Origin: Halorussus sp. MSC15.2
GTDB lineage: Archaea; Halobacteriota; Halobacteria; Halobacteriales; Haladaptataceae
Length of the DNA: 40,470 nt
NCBI RefSeq assembly: GCF_010747475.1
Contig: NZ_VSLZ01000012.1
Location: 1 to 40,470, forward strand
Direction of reading: 5' to 3'
Shown: positions 1,121 through 29,351 of the stretch, in pieces
Numbering within the stretch: the first letter of the stretch is position 1
Layout of the letters: the number at the start of each line of letters is the position of its first letter
The notes under the pieces: model-generated
Seen by the model: the letters and a program-made list of their open reading frames with translations, nothing else
Databases searched by the model: none
Told to the model about the DNA's origin: nothing
Made by a program: the position numbers and the translations under genes

Positions 1121-1130
1121 TGTATACAAA
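1121..1130 (+). promoter_or_regulatory. Probable TATA box of the winged-helix regulator
   Basis: GTATACAAAT is centred about 24 nt upstream of the ATG at 1149, the spacing expected for a leaderless archaeal transcript. A second A/T-rich stretch (TTAATAAAA, 1105-1113) lies further upstream. The position of this box is the main reason for preferring the start at 1149 over the ATG at 1113. Confidence 0.45.
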
Positions 1131-1148
1131 TACTCTTTCAGAGATAGA

Positions 1149-1823: not shown

Positions 1824-1864
1824 TAACCAATGAATCCGCCCCCTATCACTAGCTTCATTGGTTA
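1824..1864. repeat. Inverted repeat A (TAACCAATGAA ... TTCATTGGTTA)
   Basis: Perfect 11-bp arms (1824-1834 and 1854-1864) are separated by 19 bp, for a total of 41 bp. The repeat lies between the convergent ends of the regulator and the VirD4-like gene. Two further copies of the same architecture occur at 14765-14808 and 17659-17699. No T-run follows, so a terminator is not the obvious reading. Confidence 0.7.
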
Positions 1865-1951
1865 TCAGAAAGGACATGAATACTGACCCACCTACGAAGA
1901 CGCTCTATCGAGGGAAACTGCCAACCACCTCCCGCAAAACGAGACTACCAA

Positions 1952-4900
1952 TTAAAACTGGTCAATAGCTACTCCGACGTTATCCGAGACACCAGCATTC
2001 GTCTCGTCAGTCGTTACTTCCCCGTCCCTCTCGTCTTCGTCTGTATCCGGAGTGGCATCACGCGGTTCTCCATCTGGCGAGAACTCGGTAAAGCAACTAC
2101 TGCAGACCCAGCCAGTCTGAGTCTCGCTGTCTTTCTCATACTGGGCGGCCAGCGACGGTGACTCACAACACTCAACCCCGGGCCGCTCAGTCGTCTCGCT
2201 GGTCGCATCACTCTCGTCTACATCCTCTTGACCGCCTTCGGCTTCGACGGCGTCGGGGGTTGCCGGGGACGCATCCTCCGAGGGGGCGTTCATCGCGGCT
2301 CGAAGGTGTTCCCGGACTGAGCCCCGCGGCATATACCCACAGGAGACGCAGTGGAGATTCTCGGTCTTCGGGTCGTCTTCCCAGTTCCCCTCACCCACTT
2401 CCCCGCAGTCCGGACACTCAATTCCCGCGAGGTCGTCTTGTTCCACCTTCTTCTGTAGGTCATGTCGGTCGTCACGTTCGTCCGAGTCCGAACTTCCCCA
2501 ATCAGCGTCTCCGTCCCCGGAAACATTGCCTTCGGAATCATCGGGGAACAGCGGCCGGAGGTCGCCCCGCTCGTACAGCAGGGGTTCGTCGTACTGGTCG
2601 TTGTCGTCGTTCGGGAAGATTACGAACTCAAAGTCTTCGGGTTCGGGGAGGCGGTCAAACTCGATTTCGGGGATGAACGGCCGGTAGATGAACGCCCACT
2701 CCACCTTCATCTCGTCGCGAGTCCCATAGGTGTACTTCTCGCTCCCGGCGCGCACGATGTACTCGCCGTCGTCCTCCTCGTAGTAGGCCGCCACGTCCGC
2801 CTTCTCCGGGTCATCGACGTCCTCGACCGACGGAAGTTCGGCCTGTACGTTCCCTTCGTGGTCTTCGAGGACGACCGCGCCGTTGCGCTCCTGGCAGGTC
2901 GCGGCCCGCGTCCGACCTTCCTGCTCGGCGTCAGTCTTCGGCCTGACTGCCGTCTCACCCTCGACCGCGAGATAGGCGGCGGTGTTGAAGAACGTCCGAT
3001 TACCGCGTGCATCGACATCCGAGACGAAGGTCAACTGGCTGTAGTCGAGCGTGCCGTCGGGGTTCTCTCCATAGATAATCTGTTCGCCGCGGCGTGCCCA
3101 GTACGCGATATCGCCCCTATCGCTCCCGTCTTTCAAGGCGAACACGCACAGGCGGCCCGCTTCGACAGCCTTCCGGAGGTTGTGGAGCGTCTGCTTCGGC
3201 TTGTCCATCGTGGTGGTTTCGGCCTCGATAGAGACGTGCTGGCCCTGCGTCAACTCCCACAGGTAGGGTTCCTCTTCGCGTAGCCGTCGTTCGCGCTCGC
3301 GCTGGTCCTGATAGGTATCGCCCTCGCGGGGATTCGGGTCCAGCGCTGGCGGCAAGTCGGCGACCCCGTCGGGCTGTTCGTCACCCTCCTGTGTTGGGAG
3401 TGTACAGTGCATCCCGAGTTTCGTGAACGCTTCGTACGCCTTCGTGAGTACCCAGCGGTGGTCGTTCCCACCGCCACTCCCACCACTCCCGGTGTCCTGC
3501 GTAAGTCCTGCCTCCTCAAGCCCGTCCGGGGTCACGCGGAGATATAGGCCGTCCTCGCGGCGCTCGCGTTCCAGAAACTCCTCGGGCACCTGTTCGATGA
3601 TGTTCGCAACCTGACTCTGGTAGCCGAGGTCGCCTGCCCGACGCTCCCACTCGTCCTTCACGTCGTCTACAGGGACGAACTCGCGTTTCGCGTCCTGTTT
3701 GATTTGGACCGCGTACACCGACTCGAACAGCGTATCCCGCTCATCGGTCGAACCGCCACCGTCCGACTCGGGTGCTATATTTCCGGTCGTTGTCTCATTA
3801 CCCGCGACTCCTTGCCGTTCGAGAACACCGGTCCCGAACTGGTACATCAGCTCGTTTTTCACCTCTTGGTTTGTCTTCCGGCGGTGGCCGTACCGCCGTA
3901 GTGATTCCTCAACGAGATTCATCGCCTGCTCTCGGGGTCGAACCGGCGGGTACGGAGGGAACGTGTAGACTTGGAATGCTGGGGAGAGTTCGTTGTTCTC
4001 CAGTGTGAGTTGCATCCACACCTTGTAGTTTGGCGTGCCGAGCAGGGTTTGGGAATCAACGTTAAGGTTTTCTGCGATTGCCTGCGCTTCCTCGATGTGA
4101 CCGGGGTTGAATGAGATAAGCGAGTCCGAGTTTACGAACATCGCCTTGGTTACGTCCTCGGGGAGCATCGACGGGTACTGGGTACAGAACGTAATCGAAA
4201 GCCGGTAGGACCGCGCCTCCGACAGCATCTTCTCGATAGTTCCGTCCTCGTTGGCAACGTTGTCGAACTCGTCCACGAACAGATAGAAGGGGTCACGCTC
4301 TCGCTCGGCCATGTCGGCCCGCGAGCGAACCGTGGCCCAGATTCGTCGCAGGACCGCCATCCCAATCATGCCCTTCAGTTCCTCGGACTCCGACCCCATC
4401 CGCACGATGATGATTTTGTCCTCCTCGATGGCCTCCGGGATGTTGATGTCGGAGTCGCGGAACGCGATAAGTCGGCGGGCAATCGGGTTCTCGACCCACT
4501 CCTGTAGCCGGCCCAGCAGGGGTTCCAGTTTCTCGTCGTCCATGTCCGCAATCTCTTGGAGGTAGACGTCGACGAAGTCGATGCCTTCCTCGGCCATGAG
4601 GTCCGCGAAGTGCTGGCGGCTCTCTTGGTCCGCGAGGATATAGTACATGTCGATGATGTTGAAATCGTGTTCTGACCGATTCATCGCCCGGATGAGCGAC
4701 TGCGAGACACGCTTCATCCGGGCGTAATCGCCGGACCCGAACATCGACACGAGGTCGTTCACTAAGTTCTCGGCCGCCGTCTCGTAGGCTGGGTCGTCGG
4801 GGTCCAGACCGAGTTCGAGGAAATTGAATCCTGAGACGTACTCCCGTGAGGACCCCGGTTCGATCCAGATTACGTCGTCGGTCCGATGCTCGGGGATAAT

Positions 4901-5815
4901 CTCCATGAGTTCCTCGCTGTCGTCGCCCTTCGGGTCGATGAAACAAGCTCCGTAGCCCGCGTTAACCAACTGCTGGAACTCGTTTTTCAACAGCGTCGAT
5001 TTCCCGTAGCCTGTGACGCCGAAGATACCCTGATGCCGGAACAGAATATCCTTCTCGATACCTGCGTCCCGGCCGTTCCGCGTACCCTGTCCAATCCAGA
5101 GCGGCTGTTCGGGGTTCTCGCGCGACGCTTCAATCATCTCGCGGACCCGCGGCCCCGCATAGGTTTCAATCTCTCCGTCCACTTTCTCTTCAACTCCGCT
5201 CTCGTCCGAGAGGGCTTCTAGGTCGATATCGAGTTGTGGTGGGTCGTCGAATAAACCGGAAACCGCGGGGTCGTACCCTCCAATCGTTACCACGTCGTCC
5301 GCATCTTCGTCGTCCTCGTCTTCGTCGATGGCGTCGTATGGGACGCCGTTCGCGATGACGTCCTTGCCCTTAAACTCGTCCACCCCCAGTTCCTCGAACG
5401 CATACGGCCACTCGTCGCTCTCCTCGCTATCCAGCACCTGTTCGATATCGGCAACCCCGTTCTGAATTTCCAAGAGTTGGCTCGTGTCGTGGATTGTGCT
5501 GGTGCGAATCCGGGCAGCGAACTCCCGCAACCGAGCAACCTGCTCGGCTTGGTCGTCCTCTGGCGACCGACTCGTGTTCAACGGATGCCGGTCATCAGTC
5601 CGAGGAATGTACTGTTCAACCTCGTCCAGCGCCGTTTCGAGGTCAGCTATCTGCCCGGCAGTGAGGTTGCGGCGGTCGGCGTCGTTCGCAACCTCGTCGA
5701 ATACGTCCGCCAGTTGGCCATCACTAAGCGGTACCTCCGGAGACTCCTCGGGCTGGTTTGGCGCGCTTTCCTCGGAAGTGTCGTCGTCCTGCAGTATCGT
5801 GGAGAAATCTATCAT
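1952..5815 (-). CDS. VirD4/TraD-like coupling ATPase with C-terminal zinc ribbons
   Basis: This 1287-aa ATPase probably links DNA substrate to the secretion channel, the role of VirD4/TraD in conjugation. The P-loop GVTGYGKST is at about residues 265-273 and the Walker B strand (FYLFVDEFDN) at about 509-518; both are diagnostic of the HerA/FtsK/VirD4 class. The N-terminal 220 residues are acidic and lack the transmembrane pair of bacterial VirD4. The C-terminal half carries two Cys pairs typical of zinc ribbons, CPDCG...CVSC near residue 1135 and ECC...CSSC near 1225, which are possible nucleic-acid contacts. The start ATG lies 6 nt after the stop of the 391-aa gene, so the genes are probably co-transcribed. 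This is the last gene of the cassette, followed by inverted repeat A. Confidence 0.88.
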   Translation of the reverse strand: MIDFSTILQDDDTSEESAPNQPEESPEVPLSDGQLADVFDEVANDADRRNLTAGQIADLETALDEVEQYIPRTDDRHPLNTSRSPEDDQAEQVARLREFAARIRTSTIHDTSQLLEIQNGVADIEQVLDSEESDEWPYAFEELGVDEFKGKDVIANGVPYDAIDEDEDDEDADDVVTIGGYDPAVSGLFDDPPQLDIDLEALSDESGVEEKVDGEIETYAGPRVREMIEASRENPEQPLWIGQGTRNGRDAGIEKDILFRHQGIFGVTGYGKSTLLKNEFQQLVNAGYGACFIDPKGDDSEELMEIIPEHRTDDVIWIEPGSSREYVSGFNFLELGLDPDDPAYETAAENLVNDLVSMFGSGDYARMKRVSQSLIRAMNRSEHDFNIIDMYYILADQESRQHFADLMAEEGIDFVDVYLQEIADMDDEKLEPLLGRLQEWVENPIARRLIAFRDSDINIPEAIEEDKIIIVRMGSESEELKGMIGMAVLRRIWATVRSRADMAERERDPFYLFVDEFDNVANEDGTIEKMLSEARSYRLSITFCTQYPSMLPEDVTKAMFVNSDSLISFNPGHIEEAQAIAENLNVDSQTLLGTPNYKVWMQLTLENNELSPAFQVYTFPPYPPVRPREQAMNLVEESLRRYGHRRKTNQEVKNELMYQFGTGVLERQGVAGNETTTGNIAPESDGGGSTDERDTLFESVYAVQIKQDAKREFVPVDDVKDEWERRAGDLGYQSQVANIIEQVPEEFLERERREDGLYLRVTPDGLEEAGLTQDTGSGGSGGGNDHRWVLTKAYEAFTKLGMHCTLPTQEGDEQPDGVADLPPALDPNPREGDTYQDQRERERRLREEEPYLWELTQGQHVSIEAETTTMDKPKQTLHNLRKAVEAGRLCVFALKDGSDRGDIAYWARRGEQIIYGENPDGTLDYSQLTFVSDVDARGNRTFFNTAAYLAVEGETAVRPKTDAEQEGRTRAATCQERNGAVVLEDHEGNVQAELPSVEDVDDPEKADVAAYYEEDDGEYIVRAGSEKYTYGTRDEMKVEWAFIYRPFIPEIEFDRLPEPEDFEFVIFPNDDNDQYDEPLLYERGDLRPLFPDDSEGNVSGDGDADWGSSDSDERDDRHDLQKKVEQDDLAGIECPDCGEVGEGNWEDDPKTENLHCVSCGYMPRGSVREHLRAAMNAPSEDASPATPDAVEAEGGQEDVDESDATSETTERPGVECCESPSLAAQYEKDSETQTGWVCSSCFTEFSPDGEPRDATPDTDEDERDGEVTTDETNAGVSDNVGVAIDQF

Positions 5816-5821
5816 GAGTAC

Positions 5822-6997
5822 TTACTCCGTGGTGGTCTGGTCGTCGAACTGCGGTGCGTCTGCGGGGACGCCCGGACTCGACTCGGTATAGGTCCAATCG
5901 ACGTTCGGCGTCTCGATATCATCATTCGGGATGTGAGCGATACCCGCCAACTCCGGCGGAGTGAGAATCGTTTTCTCTGACGTAGCGAACTTCTCGCGAA
6001 GGCCGAGTGCTAATGTCCGGCTGGCGGCTTTCTCGACCGTCGCACGTAGTTCGTCCTTGGGCAGGGGTTGGCTGACGAGTCCCTGTTCGGTCACTGCGTT
6101 GTAGTACGTCTCGAATACTTCCGCGACACCGCGGGCGTGGCGCTCGGCAACCTCTCGGTATGGCGATATCGCGAGAACACGAATTCGAGTGTAGAAGCCG
6201 GGTTGTCCCCGCTGTTTCGCAATTTGCTCGCCTGCGTTCTTCATCTTTCGCGAGGCGTCTTGCACTTCGACTTCGCCCGAGAGTTGGCGGCCGAGACTAT
6301 CCTTCAGTCGGCCGTTCTTCAGTTCCATACCGCGGTCCTCGACGTCTATTCCGAACGGGAGTTTCTGGCTCCACGTCCGCTTCGCTGGCTTGAACACCAC
6401 CTGCACCAGCATCCGGCAGTCGTCGCTCGCGACCTGCTGGCCGTCGCTCGTCCGCTCCTCTTGAACGACCATCTCGCTCGTCAGTGGACCATAGGGGTCT
6501 TCCTCGAACGTCTCGACACCCTCTACGGGCGTCTTAATCGGATAATAGAACATCTTCCGAAGGTCCATCGTCGCCCCCGAGATGAAGTCACCTTCTTCGA
6601 CCTCGGGGAACCGCGTGTGGTACTCTTCGATTTTACTGCCGGGGTGCTTGTCCAGTACCTGCTTCTCGAAGCGCTCGCGCAAGACCTCGTCGGCGGGCTT
6701 GAACAGGAACTTGACCTTCGATTCGTCGTACCACACCTCGAACGACTGGACCGGCGACTGGTTCTGATAGTCGAACTGGCCCGTCCGAACCGTGTAGAGG
6801 GTGTTCACGAGGTCGCGGGCCGCGTCGATTCCGTCGTTCTCGGGGCGGGGCGCAATCTTGGTCAGCGGGATGTCGGGTTGCCGGGCCTGAATCGTATTTG
6901 CGAGGTCGGCGTCCACGACGGTCGTCTCGAAGGACTCACCAGTAACGCGGTCCCAGACGGCGTCTTTCAGACGGTTCGTGATATCGCTGGAATTCAT
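5822..6997 (-). CDS. Conserved conjugation-locus protein between VirB4 and VirD4
   Basis: This 391-aa soluble protein has no signal peptide or membrane span. It has a mixed alpha/beta composition, with recognisable stretches such as EVWYDESKVKFLFKPADE, GDFISGATMDL and VFKPAKRTW. It follows the VirB4 ATPase gene by 77 nt and precedes the VirD4-like gene by 6 nt. That fixed position suggests a partner or accessory domain of the coupling ATPase, but this is inferred from context. A C-terminal proline-rich tail ends in TTE. I do not recognise a named family with confidence. Confidence 0.75.
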   Translation of the reverse strand: MNSSDITNRLKDAVWDRVTGESFETTVVDADLANTIQARQPDIPLTKIAPRPENDGIDAARDLVNTLYTVRTGQFDYQNQSPVQSFEVWYDESKVKFLFKPADEVLRERFEKQVLDKHPGSKIEEYHTRFPEVEEGDFISGATMDLRKMFYYPIKTPVEGVETFEEDPYGPLTSEMVVQEERTSDGQQVASDDCRMLVQVVFKPAKRTWSQKLPFGIDVEDRGMELKNGRLKDSLGRQLSGEVEVQDASRKMKNAGEQIAKQRGQPGFYTRIRVLAISPYREVAERHARGVAEVFETYYNAVTEQGLVSQPLPKDELRATVEKAASRTLALGLREKFATSEKTILTPPELAGIAHIPNDDIETPNVDWTYTESSPGVPADAPQFDDQTTTE

Positions 6998-7074
6998 GTC
7001 GAGGCTCCGGTCCCGGAATCGAACCGAGAAACTGCCAACCCGGAGCAGGAGGGACGGCCGAGACCGCTCGCTTG

Positions 7075-9663
7075 CTACGCGGGTGGTTCCTCTGTGCGGG
7101 TGCCGAAGGTCCGCTGCACGTCGCTCGGGTCGACGTCGATATCGAAATCGAGAACGCGGTCCATCTCGCGAAGTTTCTCGATTACCGCGTTCGCAATCAC
7201 CTCGTCCGGATGTTGGTCAGCGTCTTCGGCACGCTCCAACACCTCGTAAGCTTCCTCGACCGAGAGCAGGTCAAGGAGCGCTTCCTGCTCGTCGGTTAGA
7301 TGGCCGTCTGCACCGGGGAACTCGCCCGGAAACGGCTCACCGTCGTCCACGATGTGGGTGGCCTCGTGGTCGCCGTCTCGGAGCTTCCTTTGAAGTTCCT
7401 CGGCGAACGCTGACTGTTGGGCTTCCTGTGCGCCGGGGAGGTCGTCGAGCGAGTCCTCGTCGGCATCGAAGTCAGCCACTGCGAGTTCGCCTTCGAGCGG
7501 TTCGATTCTGGCCGGAACCCATCGGTCATTGAACTGGTAGAGCGCGTTCGAGTACCCGCCGTCGCCCGTGTTGGCGTTCTTCACGAACTGCACCATCTGG
7601 TCGTTCAACCCGAGTTGGTCGGCCCACTCGTCAATCTCCGAGATTTTGTGAAGGACCGTGAACGCCGAGTTATTGATGATAGCCTCCGAGTGAGGGTGCT
7701 GGAAAAAGTCGTTGACGTCCTGCGTCACGAACCGGACACTCGTATCGAAGTGGCGAGCGTGTCGAATCCGCTGGCCGAGCCATGCGAGACTCGTACTGTT
7801 CTTCATAATCTTCTGGGCTTCGTCAATCACGAAGATGACGTTTTTCGGCGTCTCTTTCGCCCGCTCGTACACCATCGAGAACAGCAACTGCATCATAAGC
7901 GAGGTGCCACCGGCCTGTTCCTGCTGGCTTAAATCGAGGTAGATGATATCCTCGTCTTGGAGGTTGAACTCCGAGCGCTGAGCGAGGTTTTCGTACTGGC
8001 CGCCCTCTCGGAACGGCCGCAGGAAGGTCGCGAGGTCGCGGGCGGCTTCCTCGACGTCATCTCTGTCCGCGTCCTGCGCCATTACGGCGTACTCGCCGGG
8101 GTTCTGCTCCATGTCGTCGAGGACCTCGAAGACGGTCTGGAGGGTTGGACTCTCACGGTGATGGGTAGATGGGTCGCTCGTGATGTCTTTCCACTCGTAG
8201 GCGGTCCGGACTGCGTCTTGGAGGAAGAACCGTTCATCGTCAAACTCGACGTTCTCGATGTTCGCGTACGTGTCGAACATCCCCATCACTTCGTCAATCT
8301 TCGCCGAAAGCGGGTCCTTGTCTTCTCCCGTTACCCGCTTCTGTTTGTGTTCTGGCGGCTGGCGAATCTCCAGCGGGTTCAGGCCGCGACTCCCGCCGAC
8401 GGTAATCCACTTCGCCCCGAGTGCTTTGGCAACTCCGGTCAGGCCTTCGAGCGGGTCCAAGAAGATGAGCATCGTGTCTTCGGTGGCCTCGCGTGTCCGA
8501 AGCGCGTTCAGTTTCGTATTCAGGCTCTTGCCCGCGCCGGAGTCACCAATCCACGTATGGTTGTAGTTGGTCTCGCTCTTGAACGGATGCTTGAGAATCG
8601 GACTGTTATTGAAGGCGTGAGACCCCCACTCGATACCGTTCTCCTCGATGAGCGTACTCCGCGAGAGCGAGGCGAACAGCGCGCCGACACCCCGTCCGAG
8701 GACTTGCGTGCTGAATCGGTCGTGGAAATCGAGGGGATTGCGGCCGTCCGGTGCAAGTGCCTGTAACGCCTGTTCCTGTCGGCCGACCGCAGTTTCGAGG
8801 CCAATATCTGCTGGTTCGCGCCAGAACGAGTCTTTCAGATTGTCAGCCTGCCGGGAGAGTTCCTCTTCATCCTCGGCCCGGGCGGCCACCCAGAGCGAGA
8901 TTTCAGCCGGGCGTTCGCCGTTGCTGATAGCGTCGCGATAGGTGCGAAGGCGCTCGATTTCTTCGGACGTTTCCTTAGTCGCTTCCTCGTCTTCGTCGGT
9001 GTCGAAGACGCCGCTCTGGACGGCTTCCAGTCCCTCTTTCCGCATCTTCGCATCGCCCTTGGCGTCCCGGCGGTCTTTCGGGCGAACTTGCAGGGTGAGG
9101 TCGAACTTGAGGTCGGGATTCTGGAAGACGTTCTGGAGTGCGCCCGGTGCAATCACGTCGTTGAAATCGCCGGGTTCGGCGAAAAACACCCGGCGGTGGG
9201 TGTCGCCGGTCTGGACCGACCGATACGACTCGTCGATATCAAGGGGTGCAACTGCCTGCTGGTGGAGGCGCTCGACCTCGTCGGTTGGATTCTCGGGCGC
9301 GGGCAAGCCACCTGCGGGAGCCGTCTCGATAGTCTCGTCCTCGAACTGGCTGAGTTGCCGCGGCACCCCCTCGGTCGGCACGTTCGACCCAGTCGCCGGT
9401 TGACCGTCGGTCTCCGACTGAGATGGGTCGTTTGCGGCCGTGTCGGTGGAATCGACCGATGTGTCTCCGGGTGTAGAGTCGGCTTGTCTGTAGAGGTAGA
9501 AAGCGAGAACGCTGGCCGCGATGAGCAGGTAGAAGCCGACGCCACTGAGCGGTATTGGGCACGTCGCCGTCTCGCATCCCGGCGGCGTCTGGGGAAGCCA
9601 CCTGAACAGTCGATGCCAAATGTCGGCCGGGAGTGAGACGAAGAGGACGGTTTCCCTATGCAT
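7075..9663 (-). CDS. virB4: VirB4/TraC-family secretion ATPase
   Basis: This 862-aa ATPase is expected to energise the type IV secretion machine at the cytoplasmic face. A transmembrane segment lies at about residues 38-56 (GVGFYLLIAASVLAFYLY), followed by a Ser/Thr/Asp linker and the VirB4 N-terminal domain. The Walker A motif GDSGAGKS is near residue 375 and Walker B, VIFVIDEAQ, near 611. An in-frame GTG/ATG region upstream could extend it by 26 residues, but the ATG at 9663 has a good Shine-Dalgarno (GGAGGA, 9 nt upstream) and overlaps the previous gene's stop by 8 nt (ATGCATAG), so that start is chosen. The overlap indicates translational coupling to the PrgI/VirB3-like gene. Confidence 0.92.
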   Translation of the reverse strand: MHRETVLFVSLPADIWHRLFRWLPQTPPGCETATCPIPLSGVGFYLLIAASVLAFYLYRQADSTPGDTSVDSTDTAANDPSQSETDGQPATGSNVPTEGVPRQLSQFEDETIETAPAGGLPAPENPTDEVERLHQQAVAPLDIDESYRSVQTGDTHRRVFFAEPGDFNDVIAPGALQNVFQNPDLKFDLTLQVRPKDRRDAKGDAKMRKEGLEAVQSGVFDTDEDEEATKETSEEIERLRTYRDAISNGERPAEISLWVAARAEDEEELSRQADNLKDSFWREPADIGLETAVGRQEQALQALAPDGRNPLDFHDRFSTQVLGRGVGALFASLSRSTLIEENGIEWGSHAFNNSPILKHPFKSETNYNHTWIGDSGAGKSLNTKLNALRTREATEDTMLIFLDPLEGLTGVAKALGAKWITVGGSRGLNPLEIRQPPEHKQKRVTGEDKDPLSAKIDEVMGMFDTYANIENVEFDDERFFLQDAVRTAYEWKDITSDPSTHHRESPTLQTVFEVLDDMEQNPGEYAVMAQDADRDDVEEAARDLATFLRPFREGGQYENLAQRSEFNLQDEDIIYLDLSQQEQAGGTSLMMQLLFSMVYERAKETPKNVIFVIDEAQKIMKNSTSLAWLGQRIRHARHFDTSVRFVTQDVNDFFQHPHSEAIINNSAFTVLHKISEIDEWADQLGLNDQMVQFVKNANTGDGGYSNALYQFNDRWVPARIEPLEGELAVADFDADEDSLDDLPGAQEAQQSAFAEELQRKLRDGDHEATHIVDDGEPFPGEFPGADGHLTDEQEALLDLLSVEEAYEVLERAEDADQHPDEVIANAVIEKLREMDRVLDFDIDVDPSDVQRTFGTRTEEPPA

Positions 9664-10741
9664 TGGATTCCTCCATGCGGAGACCGTCGGCCGCTGGCTG
9701 GCTTCGGGTCTGGACCGCGTCGTTCGCGGCGTCGACTTCACTCGGTCGCCAGAAACCGCGCTGGAGGGCGAACGCTTCTGCGGTCGAAAGCCGATTGAGT
9801 TCGTACTCTTCGAGTTCCCGATTCAGACTGAGGACCTGTTCGAGTCGGCGATTCAATTTGCGGAGCATCTCCGAGCGTTGCTGGTCGGCCGACTGACTCC
9901 GCTGCCCGGACACGTAGTACCGGAGGACCTCGAAGACGACACCGATTTTGTTAATGTGGGCGAGTTTTTCGAGGGCGGTCTGGTCGGTCGCCGACGAAGT
10001 CGTGACCTCGGTCTCCTCCAGCGGGACGATAAGGTAGAAATGCGAGACCTGTGTGCCAGCGGCCTCGAACTGCGCTGGCCGCTCGGAGAGTCGTTCTTCA
10101 ATTAAGGCTCGCAGGTGGGGGTTCCCGAGGACGTCGGAGTCGTCAAGCCGGTCGCCAAGATGTTTGAGGTGTTGCTCAATTGGGAACGGACGGTTCGTCA
10201 CATGGATGTCGTAGTCGAAGTCGATACGGTTGTTGAACCATGTGGCGATGGAAACCATCGTCTGGTACCAGTCATCGAACTCGGCGAAATCCCGATGCGG
10301 GGGGTCGAGTTCGACGAACGCGACGAGTGAGCCGTCTTCCAGTTCGAGGATGTGGTCTCGGGGGTAGAAGCGGGCGACACCGGTCAGGTCTTGGGTGGAT
10401 TCGCTGGTATCGAACGCGCGATGGTCGGCGTCGGCCGCCGCCTCTTCGACACTGTCGTAGTGGTTGGGAGATTTGGCGTAGTGAACGAGGGTTTTCGTCC
10501 ACTGGACAGCGGCCAGGTAGCTTGGGGCGGCGACGACGTAGAGACCTCCGATGACGAGGAGGGTGAGAGGAAGACCGAGGCCGAGATAGCCCAAATCGAG
10601 GAAGAGCCAGAAGAGAAGGCCAATTCCTCCGGGTAAGAGAACGGTATAGAAATCGTGGGTGTTGATTTTAACTATCGGGACGACGGATGGCTGTCGGAAT
10701 GTTGGGACTGTAACTTGACCCAATTCATCTCGGGGAGACAT
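9656..10741 (-). CDS. PrgI/VirB3-like membrane protein with VirB4-N-like region
   Basis: This is a 361-aa protein from the ATG at 10741; a TTG at 10759 would add six residues. Two closely spaced membrane segments near the N terminus (LLPGGIGLLFWLFLDLG and LGLPLTLLVIGGLYVV) resemble the VirB3/PrgI topology. The cytoplasmic remainder (DGSLVAFVELDPPHRDF and onward) resembles the N-terminal domain of VirB4, and a Leu/Arg/Glu-rich helix near residues 285-330 may be coiled. A strong TATA-like TTAATTAAATTA is at 10787-10798, so a promoter probably drives this gene and the three downstream (VirB4, 391-aa, VirD4). Assignment to VirB3/PrgI rests on topology and its coupling to virB4. Confidence 0.7.
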   Translation of the reverse strand: MSPRDELGQVTVPTFRQPSVVPIVKINTHDFYTVLLPGGIGLLFWLFLDLGYLGLGLPLTLLVIGGLYVVAAPSYLAAVQWTKTLVHYAKSPNHYDSVEEAAADADHRAFDTSESTQDLTGVARFYPRDHILELEDGSLVAFVELDPPHRDFAEFDDWYQTMVSIATWFNNRIDFDYDIHVTNRPFPIEQHLKHLGDRLDDSDVLGNPHLRALIEERLSERPAQFEAAGTQVSHFYLIVPLEETEVTTSSATDQTALEKLAHINKIGVVFEVLRYYVSGQRSQSADQQRSEMLRKLNRRLEQVLSLNRELEEYELNRLSTAEAFALQRGFWRPSEVDAANDAVQTRSQPAADGLRMEESNA

Positions 10742-10786
10742 GATTGAACCGCTTCTCAAACATTCATCTACATTCCAAATCTATGT

Positions 10787-10798
10787 AATTTAATTAAG
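10787..10798 (-). promoter_or_regulatory. TATA-like box of the PrgI-VirB4-VirD4 operon
   Basis: TTAATTAAATTA on the minus strand lies about 46 nt upstream of the ATG at 10741. This predicts a short leader of roughly 20-25 nt. It is the clearest A/T-rich element between the surface-protein ORFs and this operon. Confidence 0.45.
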
Positions 10799-10820
10799 AG
10801 GAACTAACTATCCACGTAAT

Positions 10821-12497
10821 TCACCGGAGTAGTTGCCACGGCGGCCACGTCTCTGCTCCCGGTACCTGATTCAAGAGAAACAAGGCGAACAAGAACGGAA
10901 GCGCAAGAACGAGAATATTGTTCGCGACTCGCCCAAAGCCGACCGCGCTGAAAATCCCAGACCGTGGCAGCGCCCGCGCTCGGTCAGACAGATAACTCAC
11001 CTCACCCGTCCACCACGCCGCAGGCCTATATCTCGCAGTCACTAACCCCGTGTTCTGGACCGTCACAAGCGCCTCACCGGATTCGTTCGTCTCAATCTGA
11101 TACTCTCGGAGCTGAACATAGCCCTCTCGGCCGCTCGTGTTGATTGGGTCGCCGGTCTGGTTATCCCGGAGTCTCACCCGGACGTTCGCGTAGGACGTGT
11201 TCCAGTCTGTAACCGAGAGCGTGAGATTTGCCTTCCGAACCTCGACCGGGTCTTCCGACTGAACAACCTCTCCATTAATTCCCTGAACCACCCCAGTCGC
11301 CGTCGCCGACTGACTAAGATTCGAGTACCGCACAGCGAGCGTTTGAGTCGAATTGTACGACTCGGACGCGACTGGTACAGACACGTTCTCGGGAAGAGCC
11401 AAAGCCGGACTCGCCTGTCGAGACCCCGAAAACGTCGAAACCTCGTAGATGTCTGTTCCACGACTGGTATTCGTCGTCACACCCAACTGGCTCGGGAACG
11501 CCTGTACCCGGGCGGGCACCGTCGGCGAATCCGTCCACGAGGTCTTGTTTTGCGTTGCAGTACCTAACCGTTCCCAGTCGGGATTCTGGACCGAGAAGAA
11601 CTGCCACTGCGTATTGATTGAATCCGAGGACCCAAATCGGATGCCATTCCAGTGGTCCGACGATTGAATGATGACGCCGCGACGGCCGTTGGGGAACTCT
11701 GTCTCACGGAGGGCAGTTCGGAGTTGATAGACGGTTGCGGACACTTGGTCGGTGACCGTCACTCGGTCGGTGACGTGGGTCGAGTTCGAGGTCCACCGCG
11801 TCTCGGTGACTGTCTCGCAGACTGTCTTAGTCCCATTGCCGGTATCGATTTTCCGGCACTTCTCCCTTCTCTCGGTGTACTTGGTCAGGACAGTCTTGTT
11901 CAATTCGGCTTCGATGACAGCGACGAGCGACACCGGCGTTCCCGACCGGGCAGAGGTCCGAGCTGAGTAGCTGATATTTACCGTGTGGCGGGGGTTGCTG
12001 GCGGTTCCGATACGGGCGCTCGACCGCTGGCAGCCGCCTACCTGTCGCGGATTGCTCGGTCCCTGTACGACGCAGACCGACGTAATCTCGTGGTCACGGA
12101 GTGACCAAGAAACCTTCTTGCCATCCGAACCGTCGGTGTCGTCGGCTGGCGGCTGGACGCGATAATCGACGAGTCCGAGAACCCGGCCGTCGGGTGCGAT
12201 GTAGTGGACGGTCTGGTTCGGCGTCTGGTAGAGTTGGGTCGATGGTTGAATCCGATAGAGGGTGGCGTGTGCGTCCTGTATCCATCCGCGGGAACTCCGG
12301 CGGAGATGGGCGTCTTCCGGATGGATTGACTGCTCGGGGTCGGTCGAAAAGTTCTGGGTGTAGGCGGCCCAGTCACGGCGATTCCACTGGCTTGGAAGTG
12401 TGGGTGGAGCTGTCCAGATGTAGTCGGTCCCATTCAGAAGGGCTTCCATCGCAGTACGGTTTTTCCCGGTGAAATTCTGATACTGGGAGTCGTTCAT
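10821..12497 (-). CDS. C-terminal ORF of a split surface protein, membrane anchored
   Basis: This ORF is 558 aa when read from the ATG at 12497. It is rich in Asn, Ser and Thr with many N-x-S/T sequons, has a CRKIDTGNGTKTVCETV cysteine pair and an Ig-like stretch near the end (NLTLSVTDWNTSYANVRVRL), and closes with a transmembrane anchor (ILVLALPFLFALFLLN). It has no signal peptide, which is odd for an extracellular protein. Its frame stays open another 14 or more codons upstream (NETAKLWSLDNDQY), and that peptide matches the style of the neighbouring ORF. It therefore appears to be the continuation of the 12373-14625 ORF after a one-base frameshift at about 12540. Confidence 0.75.
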   Translation of the reverse strand: MNDSQYQNFTGKNRTAMEALLNGTDYIWTAPPTLPSQWNRRDWAAYTQNFSTDPEQSIHPEDAHLRRSSRGWIQDAHATLYRIQPSTQLYQTPNQTVHYIAPDGRVLGLVDYRVQPPADDTDGSDGKKVSWSLRDHEITSVCVVQGPSNPRQVGGCQRSSARIGTASNPRHTVNISYSARTSARSGTPVSLVAVIEAELNKTVLTKYTERREKCRKIDTGNGTKTVCETVTETRWTSNSTHVTDRVTVTDQVSATVYQLRTALRETEFPNGRRGVIIQSSDHWNGIRFGSSDSINTQWQFFSVQNPDWERLGTATQNKTSWTDSPTVPARVQAFPSQLGVTTNTSRGTDIYEVSTFSGSRQASPALALPENVSVPVASESYNSTQTLAVRYSNLSQSATATGVVQGINGEVVQSEDPVEVRKANLTLSVTDWNTSYANVRVRLRDNQTGDPINTSGREGYVQLREYQIETNESGEALVTVQNTGLVTARYRPAAWWTGEVSYLSDRARALPRSGIFSAVGFGRVANNILVLALPFLFALFLLNQVPGAETWPPWQLLR

Positions 12498-14625
12498 GTA
12501 CTGGTCGTTGTCCAGCGACCATAGCTTCGCAGTCTCGTTCGGTGGAATTCCATGTGTACCTCCAGTACTTCACTCCATTAGCGGTGATTTTTCCACGGGT
12601 ATTACCTCGGAACGTGTAGAAGCCACAGTAACCAACATAGGCTTCAAATTTATAATCGACCGTGATTCGATATGTCCCGTCGGAATCTGCGGTCCAGACA
12701 TTCTTCCGCTTTTCTTCCTCCTCTTGGTTGTACGTGTACGACCCTATCCAATCATCGTAGGTTCGTTCGCAGAGGATGTTGCTCCGATATTTTCCCGTCT
12801 CTGGGGCGAACCACCTCTTTGCAGATATCGTGGCCTGCTGGTTCGTTGGACGGAGATTCCCTCCAACACTGACCGACTCGTACACTGAATCCCCAGCGGA
12901 ACTATGATTGGTCTGGAACTGGTCTCGCTCGGACGAACCCGAACTACTCCCGCTCAGACGAACCGACACGTTCGCCGGTTGTTGGTTCCCATGAAACGTC
13001 ACGGTCGGGTCCGTCCCAGTGTAAGTTCCCGTTGCCGAGAATTGGCGCGAGTTCGTGCGACCGGAAAGAAAAAGCGTCGGGTCAGATGGCTGTTGATTGC
13101 CGGTAATCGAGATGGTCGTGTTTGCCTCCGTTCCTTCAACGGTTCTTGTCTGCTGGCTTTCTGTGTAAAGGCCGGTAAGCGAGACCGTGGTGTTATCGGC
13201 GTTCAACGGCTGAGCGAATTGAAGGACTGTCTGCATTGCCGAACCCTTCCCACGAACTGAAATCGGCTGTTCGGGGCGAGTCCGAAGGTGGAGCGAATTC
13301 CCTGAGACGGTCCCGTCAGTTGCCGCAAAGAACGAAACGTGGTCTGGCGACCCGTGAACTCGGAGGTCTCCCGATTCGGTCATCGTGAGGTTGACCGGCT
13401 CGGTCGCGGCGAGCGACGTGTTCGCTGGCGGGTCCACGTAGAGCGTGTGATTGCCCGGCGTGACGTTCTGGAACGTGTACGACCCATTCGGGCCGGTCGT
13501 CGTTGTTCGAAGATTGCTATGGAGGTGGACAGTCGCGCCTTCGACCGCGTCGCCTTCACTGTTCGTGACCGTGCCTCGAACTGAATAGGTTGTCTGTTTC
13601 TCGGATGGGTCGGTTTTGTCTACTGAGTCGTTGTCGTGGTCCCAGTTCCAATCTGGCGAGTCGACGCCGGAAGAACCAGACGACTCGTTCGACTTCCAGT
13701 CGTCGAGGTCCGACCGGACTTCATCGGTCGTGACAGGTTCGACGCTCGGAAGAATCTCAGGGAACTGGTCTTGGTGTACCTCCCAGATGATGATTGCGTC
13801 CTTCGCAGTCGTCTTGTTCTCATAGAAGAAGGGGTCGGTGTGATAGGTTCCGTTCGGAGAGAGGTAGACGACACTGCCGTTGATTTTGCCTCCGACAACA
13901 TAGCTCTCGTTGTGCTTGAATATCGACCAGTTGGCCGTCTGTGTAGTGTTTAGCTCACTTGAGAGTGGTGGGTCCGGTTCTGGATACTTCGTTGGATTCT
14001 CACCGTGTTTCGAGTTCCATGCGAGAATCGCTTTGCGAGCATCCGGCCGTAGGTCGTAAAAATACGGTCTCTGTGTCACATTCCCATCGGGGTTCAAGTA
14101 GACGACGGTGCCGTTGAGTTGTCCCGTAACGACGAATCGGCCGTTGTACTCGTAGATTGTCCAGTTTCCCGTCTCGTTGTACGTATCGAGCGTGGGGTCA
14201 GAGACCTTCGTGAGATTCGCGTACGCACTCGCCGTTGCCGAAGAGCTGCTGCCAAGCGGGAGAGGGAGAAGGCCGATGACTGCGAGGAAAACACCTGTAA
14301 GCAACACTCCGGTGATGGCCACCATCAGGACCCGTGAGCGGTCAATTTCTCTATCGGGGGTGAAATTGAACCTGAGTGATTGGCGGAGTGTCGCAACGCT
14401 CTGTGAGAGTATCGCCAGTGGTCCGGGACCGTCGCTGCTGGCGGTTTCAAGTTGGGAGCGGACATCTGCAGGGTCAACTTGGTCGGTGGAACAGCCGCCG
14501 TTGGGACACCGGCTTGCGTAGATGAGTTCGTGGCGGTGGTCGTCGTACTGGCTGGCAAGCCGGGGGAGTGATGCGAGTGGACTGTTGCAGTCCGGGCACT
14601 GGAGGTCTGAATGGTCACCGGTCAT
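12373..14625 (-). CDS. N-terminal ORF of a split zinc-ribbon/Ig-like surface protein
   Basis: This ORF is 750 aa. An N-terminal zinc ribbon (CPDC at 10-13, CPNGGC at 40-45) precedes a transmembrane segment at about 99-121, so the ribbon is cytoplasmic and the rest probably outside. A carboxypeptidase-regulatory-like/Ig-type domain occurs around residues 345-415 (YSVRGTVTNSEGDAVEGATV, then GSYTFQNVTPGNHTLYV), followed by Thr/Ser-rich beta repeats. The last 55 residues (from ERDCEAMV) abruptly become Arg/His/Pro-rich, typical of an out-of-frame tail. Skipping one base at about 12540 joins WNST to NETAKLW in the next ORF and gives a protein of about 1267 aa with membrane spans at both ends. It may be a surface component of the secretion or mating apparatus. 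Confidence 0.8.
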   Translation of the reverse strand: MTGDHSDLQCPDCNSPLASLPRLASQYDDHRHELIYASRCPNGGCSTDQVDPADVRSQLETASSDGPGPLAILSQSVATLRQSLRFNFTPDREIDRSRVLMVAITGVLLTGVFLAVIGLLPLPLGSSSSATASAYANLTKVSDPTLDTYNETGNWTIYEYNGRFVVTGQLNGTVVYLNPDGNVTQRPYFYDLRPDARKAILAWNSKHGENPTKYPEPDPPLSSELNTTQTANWSIFKHNESYVVGGKINGSVVYLSPNGTYHTDPFFYENKTTAKDAIIIWEVHQDQFPEILPSVEPVTTDEVRSDLDDWKSNESSGSSGVDSPDWNWDHDNDSVDKTDPSEKQTTYSVRGTVTNSEGDAVEGATVHLHSNLRTTTTGPNGSYTFQNVTPGNHTLYVDPPANTSLAATEPVNLTMTESGDLRVHGSPDHVSFFAATDGTVSGNSLHLRTRPEQPISVRGKGSAMQTVLQFAQPLNADNTTVSLTGLYTESQQTRTVEGTEANTTISITGNQQPSDPTLFLSGRTNSRQFSATGTYTGTDPTVTFHGNQQPANVSVRLSGSSSGSSERDQFQTNHSSAGDSVYESVSVGGNLRPTNQQATISAKRWFAPETGKYRSNILCERTYDDWIGSYTYNQEEEEKRKNVWTADSDGTYRITVDYKFEAYVGYCGFYTFRGNTRGKITANGVKYWRYTWNSTERDCEAMVAGQRPVHERLPVSEFHREKPYCDGSPSEWDRLHLDSSTHTSKPVESP

Positions 14626-14764
14626 GGCTTATGCGTTTTCTGATAGGGAAGAGGTTCCGTCGTGGGGAGACGGATAGCTTCAATAGAATTCTCCCACCCC
14701 GGCTTTTTTACGGTTTATTAGGTTGGGTTAAATACCCTGGATTCCGCCGTTCAACCGCTATATA

Positions 14765-14808
14765 GCTAACCAATGAAGACAAGAACAGGCAACGAAACAT
14801 TGGTTAGC
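14765..14808. repeat. Inverted repeat B (GCTAACCAATG ... CATTGGTTAGC)
   Basis: Perfect 11-bp arms (14765-14775 and 14798-14808) are separated by 22 bp. Measured from TAACCAATG to CATTGGTTA the site is 40 bp, against 41 bp for sites A and C. It sits between the end of the VirB6-like gene and the start of the surface protein, about 140 bp upstream of the latter's ATG and 35-75 bp upstream of the A/T-rich TATTTAAC at about 14727. This is consistent with an operator or activator site. Confidence 0.7.
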
Positions 14809-14834
14809 GAAACCGGGCCGTAGACCGCACAGCA

Positions 14835-16583
14835 TCAATCGGCGCTCTGTGTCCAGTCCCCGGCTAACGACTGGGCTTGCGCCTGTTCTCGGCCAGCCTC
14901 TCGGGCAAGCTGGATATACGACGCCTCATCCACCGTCTGCCTCATCACACCCTCACCGTACTCGTCTTTAATATTCTCCAAGAGAACCTGCGCACCATCA
15001 CGGGACAGATTACTCTCCGCGACCACCCGGGCGAACGCTTCTTCATCTGCCCTGACAGCGTCTTGTTCTGGCCCAACCGCTTCAGGTCCATCCGAGTCAG
15101 CATAAGACTCAGATGCGTCGATTCCATCGGTTGGCGTCTGAACGTCCTCAACGAGCGACTCCATCGACTTTCCGGCTTTCTGAACCGACCCAAGCGTCGA
15201 TGTAATCGGCAAGTCTGCGGTCTTCTCAGTACGAGTAGTCATCTGGCTTGCGAGGTTCTGCGAATCTGCACCGCTCTCCCCGAATCCGCCGATTTCCTCG
15301 CGGTCTACATCGTCGAGGTCGCGGCTCTTCACGCCAAGTTGTTTCATCGCTTGCGATGCTGACTTCGGCACGTTCTCGTAGGCGGACAGCGCTTGCTCCT
15401 GCACCGATTTGACGCCTGATTTCGTCATGTTGCGGGCCTTTCCGGGGGCATTCTTCGTCGCGGTTTTCGTCTGGCGGCCTGCTTTCCGCGGGTTCTGCGC
15501 TGCATACTTCGATTTCGTCATGGCCGTCCTCGCAGTCGCTTGTGTGCCTTGCTGGACGCGCTCCTCCAACTGCGCGGCCTTCTCCTCGACCAGCCCACCG
15601 TACTCGTCGCTGGACGCTTCGCCGAGTTCACCAACAGCTGTCCCGTTCGCCGCCGATTCGACCGTACCGAGCGCCTTCGACATACCGGATAGCATCGCAC
15701 CCTTGAGCGAGAGATAGTACAGCCCAAGCGAGGCGAGGGGAAGAATCATCGAGATAATAGCTTTGACGAAGTCCCCGATTTGGGGAAGAAACGTAAGACT
15801 TCCTTCAGATGAAAAGAGGGTAGTTGCGAAGTCGAACATGCCAGCGACTAAGAGCGGAAGGAACGCCATCGCGATGAAGACCTCGAAGATTTTCGTAGCG
15901 ATTCCTTTCAGGACAGGCACGTCAAGCAGGTAGATAACCGCGAACAGGTGGATGTACTGCATCACAAATATCAAGAAGAGAATCCGGAACAGATAGGCTA
16001 ACACGGCTCCGATAATGATAGCTCCATCGAGACCGCTGATACCGAGTGCCAGAACGTTCCCGCCGGGAGTGGCCGCCGCACCGATGAGCGCAGTGAGCTG
16101 GGTGGTGAGGATGGGAAGAAACTCATCGGGAGTCGGCGCGAGTGCCTTTGTCAGTCCGGCAAAGAAGGCGAGAACGCCAGCGCCGAACGGCCATGAGAAC
16201 GGAAGCACGACGAGCGCGCCAAAGATGCTGGTCCGCGCCTGATGGGTTTTCTTGCGTGAAATCGCTGGGATGGTCTCGACGACGCGAATGACGAGATAGA
16301 GAACGAACAGAATAGTAACTGCGGTCGGCAAGACTTCTGTCCACGCAGTCTCGTACACGCTCGACCACGGTGCATTTGCAGGTTGCTGGACGAGTGCGAC
16401 AACGGATGGACAGTCCGGATACGACTGGCTTGCTCCTTCGACACACCGCTTTGGGACGGGCGTATACAGGATAATTTCGAGACCGGTTTCGACGACACCC
16501 TTGAGAAGCTCAATAATGGGTTCGAGAAGCGTCTTGAATATGCCCAGAATAGCGCTTTTAATCGCGCTAACGATATCTGGCAT
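14835..16583 (-). CDS. VirB6/TrbL-like polytopic membrane protein
   Basis: This 582-aa protein has about 310 N-terminal residues with several hydrophobic spans (for example VTILFVLYLVIRVV, ALVVLPFSWPFGAGVLAFFAG, LFLIFVMQYIHLFAVIYLL and IFEVFIAMAFLPLLVAGMF). A hydrophilic tail of about 270 residues follows, rich in Gln, Ala, Lys and Glu. Its size, topology and position in a VirB4/VirD4 locus match the VirB6/TrbL inner channel component, but sequence identity to that family cannot be checked here. Its ATG follows the stop of the lipoprotein gene after a single base (TAAgATG), so the two are translationally coupled. A pair of cysteines (RCVEG...PDC) lies in a short loop near residues 46-58. Confidence 0.75.
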   Translation of the reverse strand: MPDIVSAIKSAILGIFKTLLEPIIELLKGVVETGLEIILYTPVPKRCVEGASQSYPDCPSVVALVQQPANAPWSSVYETAWTEVLPTAVTILFVLYLVIRVVETIPAISRKKTHQARTSIFGALVVLPFSWPFGAGVLAFFAGLTKALAPTPDEFLPILTTQLTALIGAAATPGGNVLALGISGLDGAIIIGAVLAYLFRILFLIFVMQYIHLFAVIYLLDVPVLKGIATKIFEVFIAMAFLPLLVAGMFDFATTLFSSEGSLTFLPQIGDFVKAIISMILPLASLGLYYLSLKGAMLSGMSKALGTVESAANGTAVGELGEASSDEYGGLVEEKAAQLEERVQQGTQATARTAMTKSKYAAQNPRKAGRQTKTATKNAPGKARNMTKSGVKSVQEQALSAYENVPKSASQAMKQLGVKSRDLDDVDREEIGGFGESGADSQNLASQMTTRTEKTADLPITSTLGSVQKAGKSMESLVEDVQTPTDGIDASESYADSDGPEAVGPEQDAVRADEEAFARVVAESNLSRDGAQVLLENIKDEYGEGVMRQTVDEASYIQLAREAGREQAQAQSLAGDWTQSAD

Positions 16584-16584
16584 C

Positions 16585-17388
16585 TTACTGCGGTTTTACG
16601 TACTGCCGACAGGCTTTCTGGGGGTCGTCGGGGTCCTCTGTGACGAGACGATACGAATTTTTGACGTTCGCCCCAATCTTCGTTGACAGGACGACGGACA
16701 GTTCTGTGGAATCACCGCAGGTGAACTCAGTTCCGAAGAGGAACGGTCCGTCCACTGTAAAGAACTGTCTCGTTTCACCGGGGTGAAGAACGACGTTTTT
16801 CAGTCGGTCTCCCTCAAGCGTCTGGAGGCCGGAGAACGACGTGGCGGAGCGCTTCGGCCACGAACCCGGCACTCCCGGCATCCCGAGGAAGGTAATCTGC
16901 TGTGGAGTGGTACCCGTGTTGGAGAGTTCTAAATATGCCTGAAAGTATTTTTCTCCAGTCGGCCACTCGACGTCGTCGGTCTGAAGCCACGTCGCCACTC
17001 GGTCGATTTCCACGTTCGGATGGAGGTCTACCGACGCTTCACCGACAACTTCGCCAGACGAGACGGCGACTGCTCGATGGGTGCCACGCGGGACCGACTG
17101 TAAGACGTTGAACGAGGCTTTGGTTGACCCGGTCGGAATCGATTGTGACCCAAGCGATGGTGAGCCGTTCGGCCCAATGACGTTCACTTTCTCGACGTCT
17201 GCCTCGGAGGATAGGGAGACGACGAGTTTCGTGCCGTCGATAGAGGTGTCTTTGATAGCACCTTGTGTCTGTGTGGTCGGCGTGGTGGTCGAGTTTGATT
17301 CGGACGTATTGGAAAGCATTCCTGCACAGCCTGCAAGAGAGGTGAGTCCGGTCGTTCCGACGGCTTGGAGTAGGGTGCGACGATTCAT
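16585..17388 (-). CDS. Tat-exported lipoprotein of the secretion locus
   Basis: This 267-aa protein begins MNRRTLLQAVGTTGLTSLAG, a twin-arginine signal followed by the lipobox LAGC, so it should be exported folded and lipid-anchored on the outer face. A Ser/Thr-rich linker follows, then a beta-rich domain (KLVVSLSSEADVEKVNVIGP, and RQFFTVDGPFLFG near the end). An upstream in-frame ATG at 17406 would give six extra residues, but the A/T-rich box at 17417-17427 would place the transcript start near 17395, which favours 17388. It is co-transcribed with the VirB6-like gene and could play the part of a VirB7-like lipoprotein; that role is inference. Confidence 0.8.
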   Translation of the reverse strand: MNRRTLLQAVGTTGLTSLAGCAGMLSNTSESNSTTTPTTQTQGAIKDTSIDGTKLVVSLSSEADVEKVNVIGPNGSPSLGSQSIPTGSTKASFNVLQSVPRGTHRAVAVSSGEVVGEASVDLHPNVEIDRVATWLQTDDVEWPTGEKYFQAYLELSNTGTTPQQITFLGMPGVPGSWPKRSATSFSGLQTLEGDRLKNVVLHPGETRQFFTVDGPFLFGTEFTCGDSTELSVVLSTKIGANVKNSYRLVTEDPDDPQKACRQYVKPQ

Positions 17389-17416
17389 TTCTACTCGACC
17401 GGACATACTTTGCTCA

Positions 17417-17427
17417 TATTTTTATTA
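17417..17427 (-). promoter_or_regulatory. TATA-like box of the lipoprotein-VirB6 operon
   Basis: On the minus strand AATAAAAATAT, within a longer A/T stretch, lies about 34 nt upstream of the ATG at 17388 and only 16 nt upstream of the alternative ATG at 17406. This supports the shorter protein. Inverted repeat C lies about 230 bp further upstream. Confidence 0.45.
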
Positions 17428-17432
17428 CTTAA

Positions 17433-18411
17433 TTAACTTGAGTCACCATCTACAAGGGGATCGTCTCTACACGGATGCATCTGGAACCACGACGTACCGC
17501 GACCTCCACACCGAGGTTACAAAATACACGCTTCTCCCCTACAGGGGTAGGTCTGTAACGAGGTGTTGTGAGTCGTTGGTCTGAGCAGGGTCGATGGAAC
17601 GCTAATTCCTGTCCGAGATACCCAAATATATTCGGCACCGGGAGTGTTTGTCTGCCGTTAACCAATGGCAGTTAGACGAACGCTAGCTTGCAGTGGTTAG
17701 CGTAACGCAGTTCGGGTGTGACAGTCACGTCGGTCTTACCAGACGGTAAAAGACCGTCATTTAAATAGTATTTACTGTCTTCTACTATGCGTGGAAGTGA
17801 AAGCATTCCGAGTCAACGACGATGTTAATCTCGCCAGTGCGTGTGTCTTCCGTAATGTAGGAACGAACAATCTCCTAGTCAGTCGTCCGGTTGCCGAACT
17901 AGAAGTTTCATTTGGACTGCTTTCAACAAGTTCTACGACGTAACTTGAAGAACTCTATTGGTTTATAGAGCCACAGAGGAGTCCGAGCTGGCAACATCAA
18001 AAGGTGATATTCGAAAGATTTCCATTGAAGTAGGCTCTCGTTCTGTTGGTCAGAACTTACTATCCAAATTGCGGAGAGCATCTCGGCGGTCTGTATTTCT
18101 ACTTCTCCGGGACCTACTCCTCGCACGTCGTCGGTGCGTTATAACCCTCCATATCGGTCTGGTGTTCTTACCTAGCGAGAACATTCAGTCACCCTTCAGT
18201 CTACGGGTACTGTGCCTTCGTTACACTCTCGAGCGATTGAGAGCGTTTCTACCGTTAATATGACAGGGGTTGGATGTCAAAGGGCACATCGCAGTTGTAC
18301 AGACACGAATCCTGATGTGGTTAGAGCTCCCTGTGGAGAAGCCATTGATAGTCAATGTGAGCAGGGAGATATGCTTGCAACTGCATTCGACCATTCTACG
18401 CCAACAATAAT
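17433..18411. other. Divergent intergenic region of about 1 kb
   Basis: It separates the lipoprotein operon (minus) from the FG-GAP gene (plus). Inverted repeat C is at 17659-17699. A hairpin (CGGTCTTACC paired with GGTAAAAGACCG, about 17731-17756) lies directly before an A/T-rich box (ATTTAAATAG, about 17759) that could drive a short transcript, but only a 13-codon frame follows. No gene of credible composition was found in the rest. Confidence 0.4.
17659..17699. repeat. Inverted repeat C (TAACCAATG ... CAGTGGTTA)
   Basis: The arms 17659-17667 and 17691-17699 pair at 8 of 9 positions, with a total span of 41 bp as in site A. It lies about 270 bp upstream of the lipoprotein-VirB6 operon, at the outer edge of the secretion cassette. 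Together with site A it brackets every minus-strand gene of the secretion locus. Confidence 0.6.
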
Positions 18412-29349: not shown

Positions 29350-29351
29350 GT

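Follow-up and report, generated by a model that had tools for sequence, protein, structure and literature searches.

Three Palindromes Delimit Two T4SS Units in the Window

The window, which is the entire 40,470-bp contig C12, carries three palindromic sites of the pattern CTAACCAATG-N~21-CATTGGTTA(G), placed around T4SS genes as follows.

1113-1709, plus strand: 198-aa protein, no Pfam or NCBIfam family
1824-1864 (41 bp): alpha-type palindromic site 1, exact arms TAACCAATG/CATTGGTTA
1952-14625, minus strand: T4SS unit between sites 2 and 1, with a surface-type protein, a VirB4-like ATPase, a HerA/TraG-D-like ATPase and others
1952-5815, minus strand: HerA/TraG-D-like ATPase, within the 1952-14625 unit
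7075-9741, minus strand: VirB4-like ATPase, within the 1952-14625 unit
14767-14806 (40 bp): alpha-type palindromic site 2, exact arms TAACCAATG/CATTGGTTA
14835-17406, minus strand: T4SS unit between sites 3 and 2, with a 273-aa protein and a TrbL/VirB6-like protein (Pfam TrbL_3, 1.2e-11)
17659-17699 (41 bp): alpha-type palindromic site 3, right arm CAGTGGTTA, one mismatch

The first-pass annotation had reported the repeat at these three places and nowhere else in the window, and all three were recovered, with perfect 9-bp arms at sites 1 and 2 and a single arm mismatch at site 3; no further paired copies were found in the window. Half-sites with at most one mismatch numbered 9 against 3.2 expected, a count reached in none of 100 shuffles. 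Site 1 lies where the 198-aa gene and the HerA/TraG-D-like gene converge, between their 3' ends, and site 2 lies 28 bp past the stop codon of the VirB6-like gene, followed downstream by a TATA-like element and the 12373-14625 gene. Site 3 is upstream of both the minus-strand gene at 16585-17406 and a divergent plus-strand region encoding an FG-GAP surface protein. Together the sites frame two T4SS transcription units, the longer of which (1952-14625) has Pfam matches to P-loop_TraG (1.3e-10), DUF87 (6.2e-6) and TraG-D_C (6e-5).

Both units have homologues on contig G008:C7 of a related species, the 14835-17406 unit at G008:C7:182761-185407 and the 1952-14625 unit with its gene order unchanged, and all three sites have counterparts around these homologous operons. 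The counterpart of site 1 (G008:C7:166646-166685) lies, like site 1 itself, 115-117 bp past the stop codon of the 198-aa gene homologue; that of site 2 (G008:C7:182695-182733) lies 27 bp past the VirB6-like stop codon; and those of site 3 (G008:C7 185693 and 185820) are upstream of the homologous gene. The interiors of these syntenic sites differ between the two contigs, and two of the sites stand at nearly identical distances from their stop codons.

Elsewhere in the window, a DUF7504 and CHAT-domain gene pair (28675-31418), with close homologues near the G008:C7 T4SS block, and a SIR2-like/TPR protein (32410-34377) are possibly defence genes. At 40304-40468 (minus strand) there are three CRISPR repeats (Rfam CRISPR-DR24 type), in an array cut off by the contig boundary.

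A Family of Sites on Haloarchaeal Plasmids

Over the whole Halorussus genome (4.4 Mb, 25 contigs) there were six exact paired sites, two on C12 and four on contig C6, and 0 matches to a reversed-pattern control. The exact alpha form was listed about 24-25 times on G008:C7, a replicon of about 199.7 kb taken to be circular because its contig ends repeat, and was confined to single contigs in other genomes of the genus (G005:C4, n = 8, among 12 sites in all; G004:C4, n = 1; G015:C24, n = 1). No exact alpha form was found in other genera among 59 genomes. Isolated bacterial singletons of this exact form in a 257-Gb scan and the many matches on viral contigs were taken as chance.

Scanning de novo for inverted repeats near homologues of the neighboring genes turned up this geometry again, with different arms, TAACCAAC(A/G), and a sister form, TTAACCAAC(A/G)-N~22-GTTGGTTAA, is present on haloarchaeal plasmids. 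In 84 of 146 haloarchaeal genomes the pattern TAACCAA-N25..27-TTGGTTA matched, at 739 sites in total, whereas its reversed control matched in one genome only, and a chance origin was rejected on this comparison. Two forms dominate the contigs that we read: alpha, RCTAACCAATG (C12, C6, G008:C7, G005:C4 and G004:C4), and beta, TTAACCAAC(A/G), exemplified by the H. aquaticus plasmid unnamed2 with 19 sites; on contig G002:C3 the form is intermediate. Named counterparts and contig sizes lead us to infer that all site-bearing contigs are plasmids. Searches of the literature with the arm sequences and with haloarchaeal repeat, integrase and plasmid terms found no description of the family, and these 40-base palindromes apparently constitute a large and so far undescribed family on haloarchaeal plasmids. 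A second inverted repeat, equal in span (40-41 bp) but with arms CGTCGACCC...GGGTCGACG, recurs on H. aquaticus plasmid unnamed3 (G004:C4; L155:15269, L155:19865 and L157:9561, among others).

This distribution bears on what the first-pass annotation made of the repeat. The search of the whole genome and of related elements found it in the related T4SS cassette of G008:C7 and also scattered beyond the secretion locus, over plasmid-like contigs, and T4SS loci on other plasmids are often without a nearby site. The proposed locus-wide regulator finds no support in its original form, since the sites are a property of whole plasmids rather than of the secretion locus; a locus-specific regulator of the secretion genes was rejected for the same reason. 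Nor did the 198-aa protein (1113-1709; 1149-1709 in the first-pass annotation), suggested as the binder, follow the sites: among the alpha contigs compared it was found only on C12 and G008:C7, and not on G005:C4 with its 12 sites; its single-sequence fold (mean pLDDT 38) was uninformative.

Anatomy of the Site

Across 49 sites the alpha arms are nearly invariant from positions -1 to +8, and position -2 is a purine on the left and a pyrimidine on the right, the two choices being independent of each other. The interior measures 20-22 bp and the arm centers are about 31-32 bp apart, or three helical turns rather than the four of the first-pass annotation. In the 49 alpha sites the interior and outer flanks showed compensatory pairing only at -3, with a weak signal at -4 and +9. 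Nearly all beta arms are paired: 154 of 159 lie in full sites, and the five singles are at chance level. Because the arms are invariant, nearly always paired and without covariation, we read the palindromes as protein sites on duplex DNA and not as RNA hairpins; the pairing of the arms and the lack of compensatory changes in the interior point to the duplex palindrome as a whole, its arm centers about 31 bp apart, as the probable functional unit.

Placement Relative to Genes and Promoters

Gene calls on unannotated contigs were made by mechanical ORF calling. By these calls, beta sites are mostly intergenic: 10 of 85 fell inside an ORF, and the contexts counted were 42 start/stop, 20 start/start and 12 stop/stop gaps. 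The distance on the stop side was below 25 bp in 29 of 66 cases, and the median distance to a start was 84 bp; in the H. aquaticus plasmid, which is annotated, sites in tandem contexts mostly lie 0-23 bp past a stop codon. Outward of the beta sites, TATA-like 5-mers peaked at 50-79 bp (49 of 70 in that range).

This last result keeps a plasmid-wide transcription regulator as a live rival to the recombination reading developed below. The palindromes would then be operators on which a dimer or tetramer occupies the half-sites upstream of many promoters, coordinating transfer, defence and maintenance genes. Besides the TATA-like elements, the many start codons 50-100 bp from sites, the conservation of the arms as duplex sequence and the retention in two species of sites upstream of homologous T4SS genes are consistent with such a role. 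Operators are less readily squared with the many sites that directly follow a stop codon (0-25 bp) or with the convergent gaps, which beta sites did not significantly avoid (8 of 65, vs. 120 of 573 control gaps; p = 0.10), and no regulator common to all site-bearing contigs was recognized. The regulators KorA/KorB (RK2) and AcaCD (IncC) likewise have sequence-invariant sites scattered near the promoters of transfer genes and of other plasmid genes; unlike these, the haloarchaeal sites also occur in convergent gaps and at the ends of present/absent DNA. On balance we consider the regulator rather unlikely, though the best placed of the alternatives.

Homology Between Plasmids Breaks at the Sites

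When 600-bp flanks were compared, 394 site pairs were homologous on one side only and 118 on both sides. Of the ends of homologous blocks, 163 lay no more than 15 bp from a beta site, against 32.4 (SD 10.3, maximum 63, 500 draws) for other intergenic windows; for alpha sites the figures were 83 against 18.5 (maximum 77); since block ends are not independent events, the draws show an enrichment and not a probability. Homology between plasmids is thus broken 4-5 times more commonly at sites than at other intergenic positions. An excess this far above other intergenic DNA speaks against a regulator; on that reading, junctions at the sites would come from operons moving along with their operators.

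Individual present/absent junctions gave the same picture. A 1.6-kb segment between sites in G001:C6 is absent between the same two genes in G003:C2 (158649) and G009:C7; a 2.1-kb segment present in G001:C8 is absent in G004:C3 (H. aquaticus 39179); and a 27-kb island that stands at the related junction elsewhere in G003:C2 is absent in G009:C7, to which its flanks are 93 and 91% identical. In each of the three cases homology starts no more than a few bases from the arm on at least one side. The interior stays with the upstream gene in some chimeric sites and is unrelated in others despite an 87% identical flank, so that it is not always tied to one side. Flipping of the interior as a general rule was rejected, with only five discordant pairs, near the noise level. 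A 4.2-kb, 96% identical block (G001:C6:33433-37671) is module-like at its left end only, homology picking up again past the right site, and contig C10 of the Halorussus genome was weakened as a clean 4.5-kb insertion, because comparison with H. limi and H. caseinilyticus showed the insert to take in part of the neighboring gene as well. The sites between gene blocks mark where plasmids swapped blocks, and are therefore probably the cut-and-join points of a gene-exchange system.

Repeated Elements and Insertion Sequences at the Sites

A 1.1-1.3 kb element (L016:4330-5640) occurs on G008:C7 in six near full-length copies and one partial copy, with further copies on C6, G005:C4, G004:C4 and G015:C24. 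It usually has one site upstream and two downstream, the latter about 127 bp apart, and homology of the copies at G008:C7:25778 and 99602 to the other copies stops at the outer arm. The element encodes a zinc-finger-like protein of ~124 aa, and on C6 and in one G008:C7 copy there is an extra upstream ORF of ~89-109 aa; the small zinc-finger-like genes (124 and 89 aa) matched no Pfam or NCBIfam family. Also repeated several times on G008:C7 is a block (L097:8940-12918) that encodes a 300-aa coiled-coil protein alongside PadR-like and winged-helix genes; two copies of the block lie just beyond the sites at 108758 and 125767.

IS1595-type terminal repeats were observed at L316:3350-3399 and L319:17034-17105 (H. 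aquaticus unnamed2 183350-183399 and 237034-237105). All three site-adjacent repeats of this type on unnamed2 start exactly 10 bp outside an arm, as if the insertion sequence targeted the site; a copy in G005:C3 is not beside a site.

A Proposed Recombination Site and Its Candidate Recombinase

What has to be explained is that the arms are invariant and paired, that the sites lie between transcription units, that homology breakpoints are enriched at them and that present/absent junctions fall at the arms. As the best explanation, though at no better than even odds, we propose that site-specific recombination takes place at the palindrome, which would thereby form the boundary of gene modules exchanged among haloarchaeal plasmids. 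A recombinase would bind the two invariant 10-11 bp inverted half-sites as duplex DNA, and recombination of one site with another, with strands exchanged at or close to an arm, would excise, insert or swap the intervening DNA; as a result, modules such as operons, T4SS units and toxin-antitoxin or defence genes would end at sites and be shuffled between plasmids. Recombination explains the sites in convergent gaps, the tight spacing to stop codons and the arm junctions on both sides of inserts, and a regulator explains the TATA spacing only. The clustering of TATA-like elements 50-79 bp outside the sites is not required by recombination alone, and both functions may hold if modules start with their own promoters. 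A point against recombination is the ~21-bp spacer between the arms, which differs from the 6-8 bp of known tyrosine recombinase core sites. The interiors that do not always go with one side, and the C10 insertion that proved more complex than a clean one, also count against it.

The exchange would be the work of a dedicated recombinase, and the leading candidate, a tyrosine recombinase (Phage_int_SAM_5, about 408 aa), is encoded on most site-bearing contigs; no solved structure is similar to it in sequence. Five beta contigs carry a copy 90-94% identical to that of Haloplanus, and the alpha contigs C6, G008:C7 and G005:C4 carry divergent tyrosine recombinases. Sites were present in 33 of 34 genomes with a close beta recombinase vs. 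51 of 112 without (Fisher p about 1e-8), an association that is confounded with plasmid type. Given that a close VirB4 predicts sites equally (33 of 35 genomes, hand count) and that several site-rich genomes (G002, G053, G100, and G142) have no close copy, the recombinase is a candidate and not a finding. In most plasmids its gene is not adjacent to sites.

Of the remaining alternatives, a parS-like site, through which a plasmid protein would segregate or fold the plasmid and whose arm types would be incompatibility classes, is improbable. Dispersed, intergenic, orientation-indifferent sites restricted to plasmid-like contigs would suit it, as would the ParA genes on most site-bearing contigs, but no ParA of that cluster was found on G008:C7 with its about 24 sites, and breakpoints at the arms are not predicted. 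Still less probable is an RNA element or terminator whose transcript hairpin ends the upstream unit: many sites directly follow stop codons, some with a T tract within ~25 bp, but 20 of 75 sites lie between divergent units, no Rfam family matched at the sites, and the arms are invariant without compensatory changes around unpaired interiors. A transfer origin nicked by a relaxase, as suggested by inverted repeats near T4SS genes in the window, is scarcely credible when plasmids carry tens of dispersed sites, most of them far from transfer genes, rather than one near the relaxase or transfer genes, and when T4SS loci elsewhere are often without a site close by. The first-pass annotation had offered DNA processing or recombination as one possibility; recombination has gained from the breaking and joining of related plasmids at the sites, and the oriT half of that suggestion has not.

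Comparison With Known Systems

In Acinetobacter pdif sites, which are acted on by XerC/XerD, the XerC arm differs from the XerD arm and the spacer is short, about 6 bp. The haloarchaeal sites have identical arms, an interior of 20-22 bp, an unrelated sequence and archaeal hosts, and they show no XerC/XerD-type arms with such a spacer. They do resemble the plasmid dif modules in that several short bipartite inverted sites per plasmid bound accessory genes in shuffled modules (PMC7399989, PMC6449649, PMC13141974), which in Acinetobacter include toxin-antitoxin modules (same sources). IS1202-family elements lie a fixed few bases away from pdif sites (PMC10132070), a likeness to the IS1595-type ends described above.

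The textbook consensus of the R box of integron attC sites is RYYYAAC / GTTRRRY, of which the arms (R)CTAACCAATG or TTAACCAAC have only TAAC/GTTA in common. Integron attC sites are nonetheless similar in being palindromes just past gene ends, with TAAC/GTTA outer arms, that join modules through a tyrosine recombinase, which is suspected here. What is conserved in attC sites is the folded structure, with its L and R boxes, and they function in single-stranded form, whereas the haloarchaeal arms are conserved as duplex, the interior of the 49 sites has no consistent pairing or covariation beyond the outer arms, and units lie kilobases apart in both orientations. An attC site stands at the 3' end of each cassette gene; of the haloarchaeal stop-side distances 29 of 66 are under 25 bp, and 20 contexts are start/start. 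Tyrosine recombinases are present, though not beside the sites, and no intI-attI platform was seen. Gene cassettes with attC sites are described from archaeal integrons as well, in a paper in which the term "halo" is absent (PMC9668308). By the features tested, the sites appear to work like dif modules or integron cassettes while being members of neither.

Haloarchaeal mobile DNA is also rearranged in the virus phiCh1, by site-specific inversion of an invertible region (cited in the review PMC8371274). That is one region in one virus and, as far as known, not a dispersed family with the sequence of these sites.

Implications for Haloarchaeal Plasmids

Haloarchaeal plasmids are large and mosaic, with fast-changing gene content, and how the mosaics are built is largely unexplained. 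We tentatively suggest that these plasmids, T4SS-bearing ones included, may be assembled from interchangeable modules by a dedicated site-specific recombination system. Its geometry would be unusual, with a variable spacer of ~21 bp flanked by identical inverted arms of 10-11 bp; its specificity classes would number at least two, CTAACCAATG and TTAACCAAC; and in function it would be the archaeal equivalent of integrons and dif modules. Should a regulator prove to be the correct reading, the sites would outline a plasmid-wide regulon that includes archaeal transfer genes, likewise undescribed in the literature searched. A class-wide 40-bp site that marks the joints would make the modules readable from any plasmid sequence.
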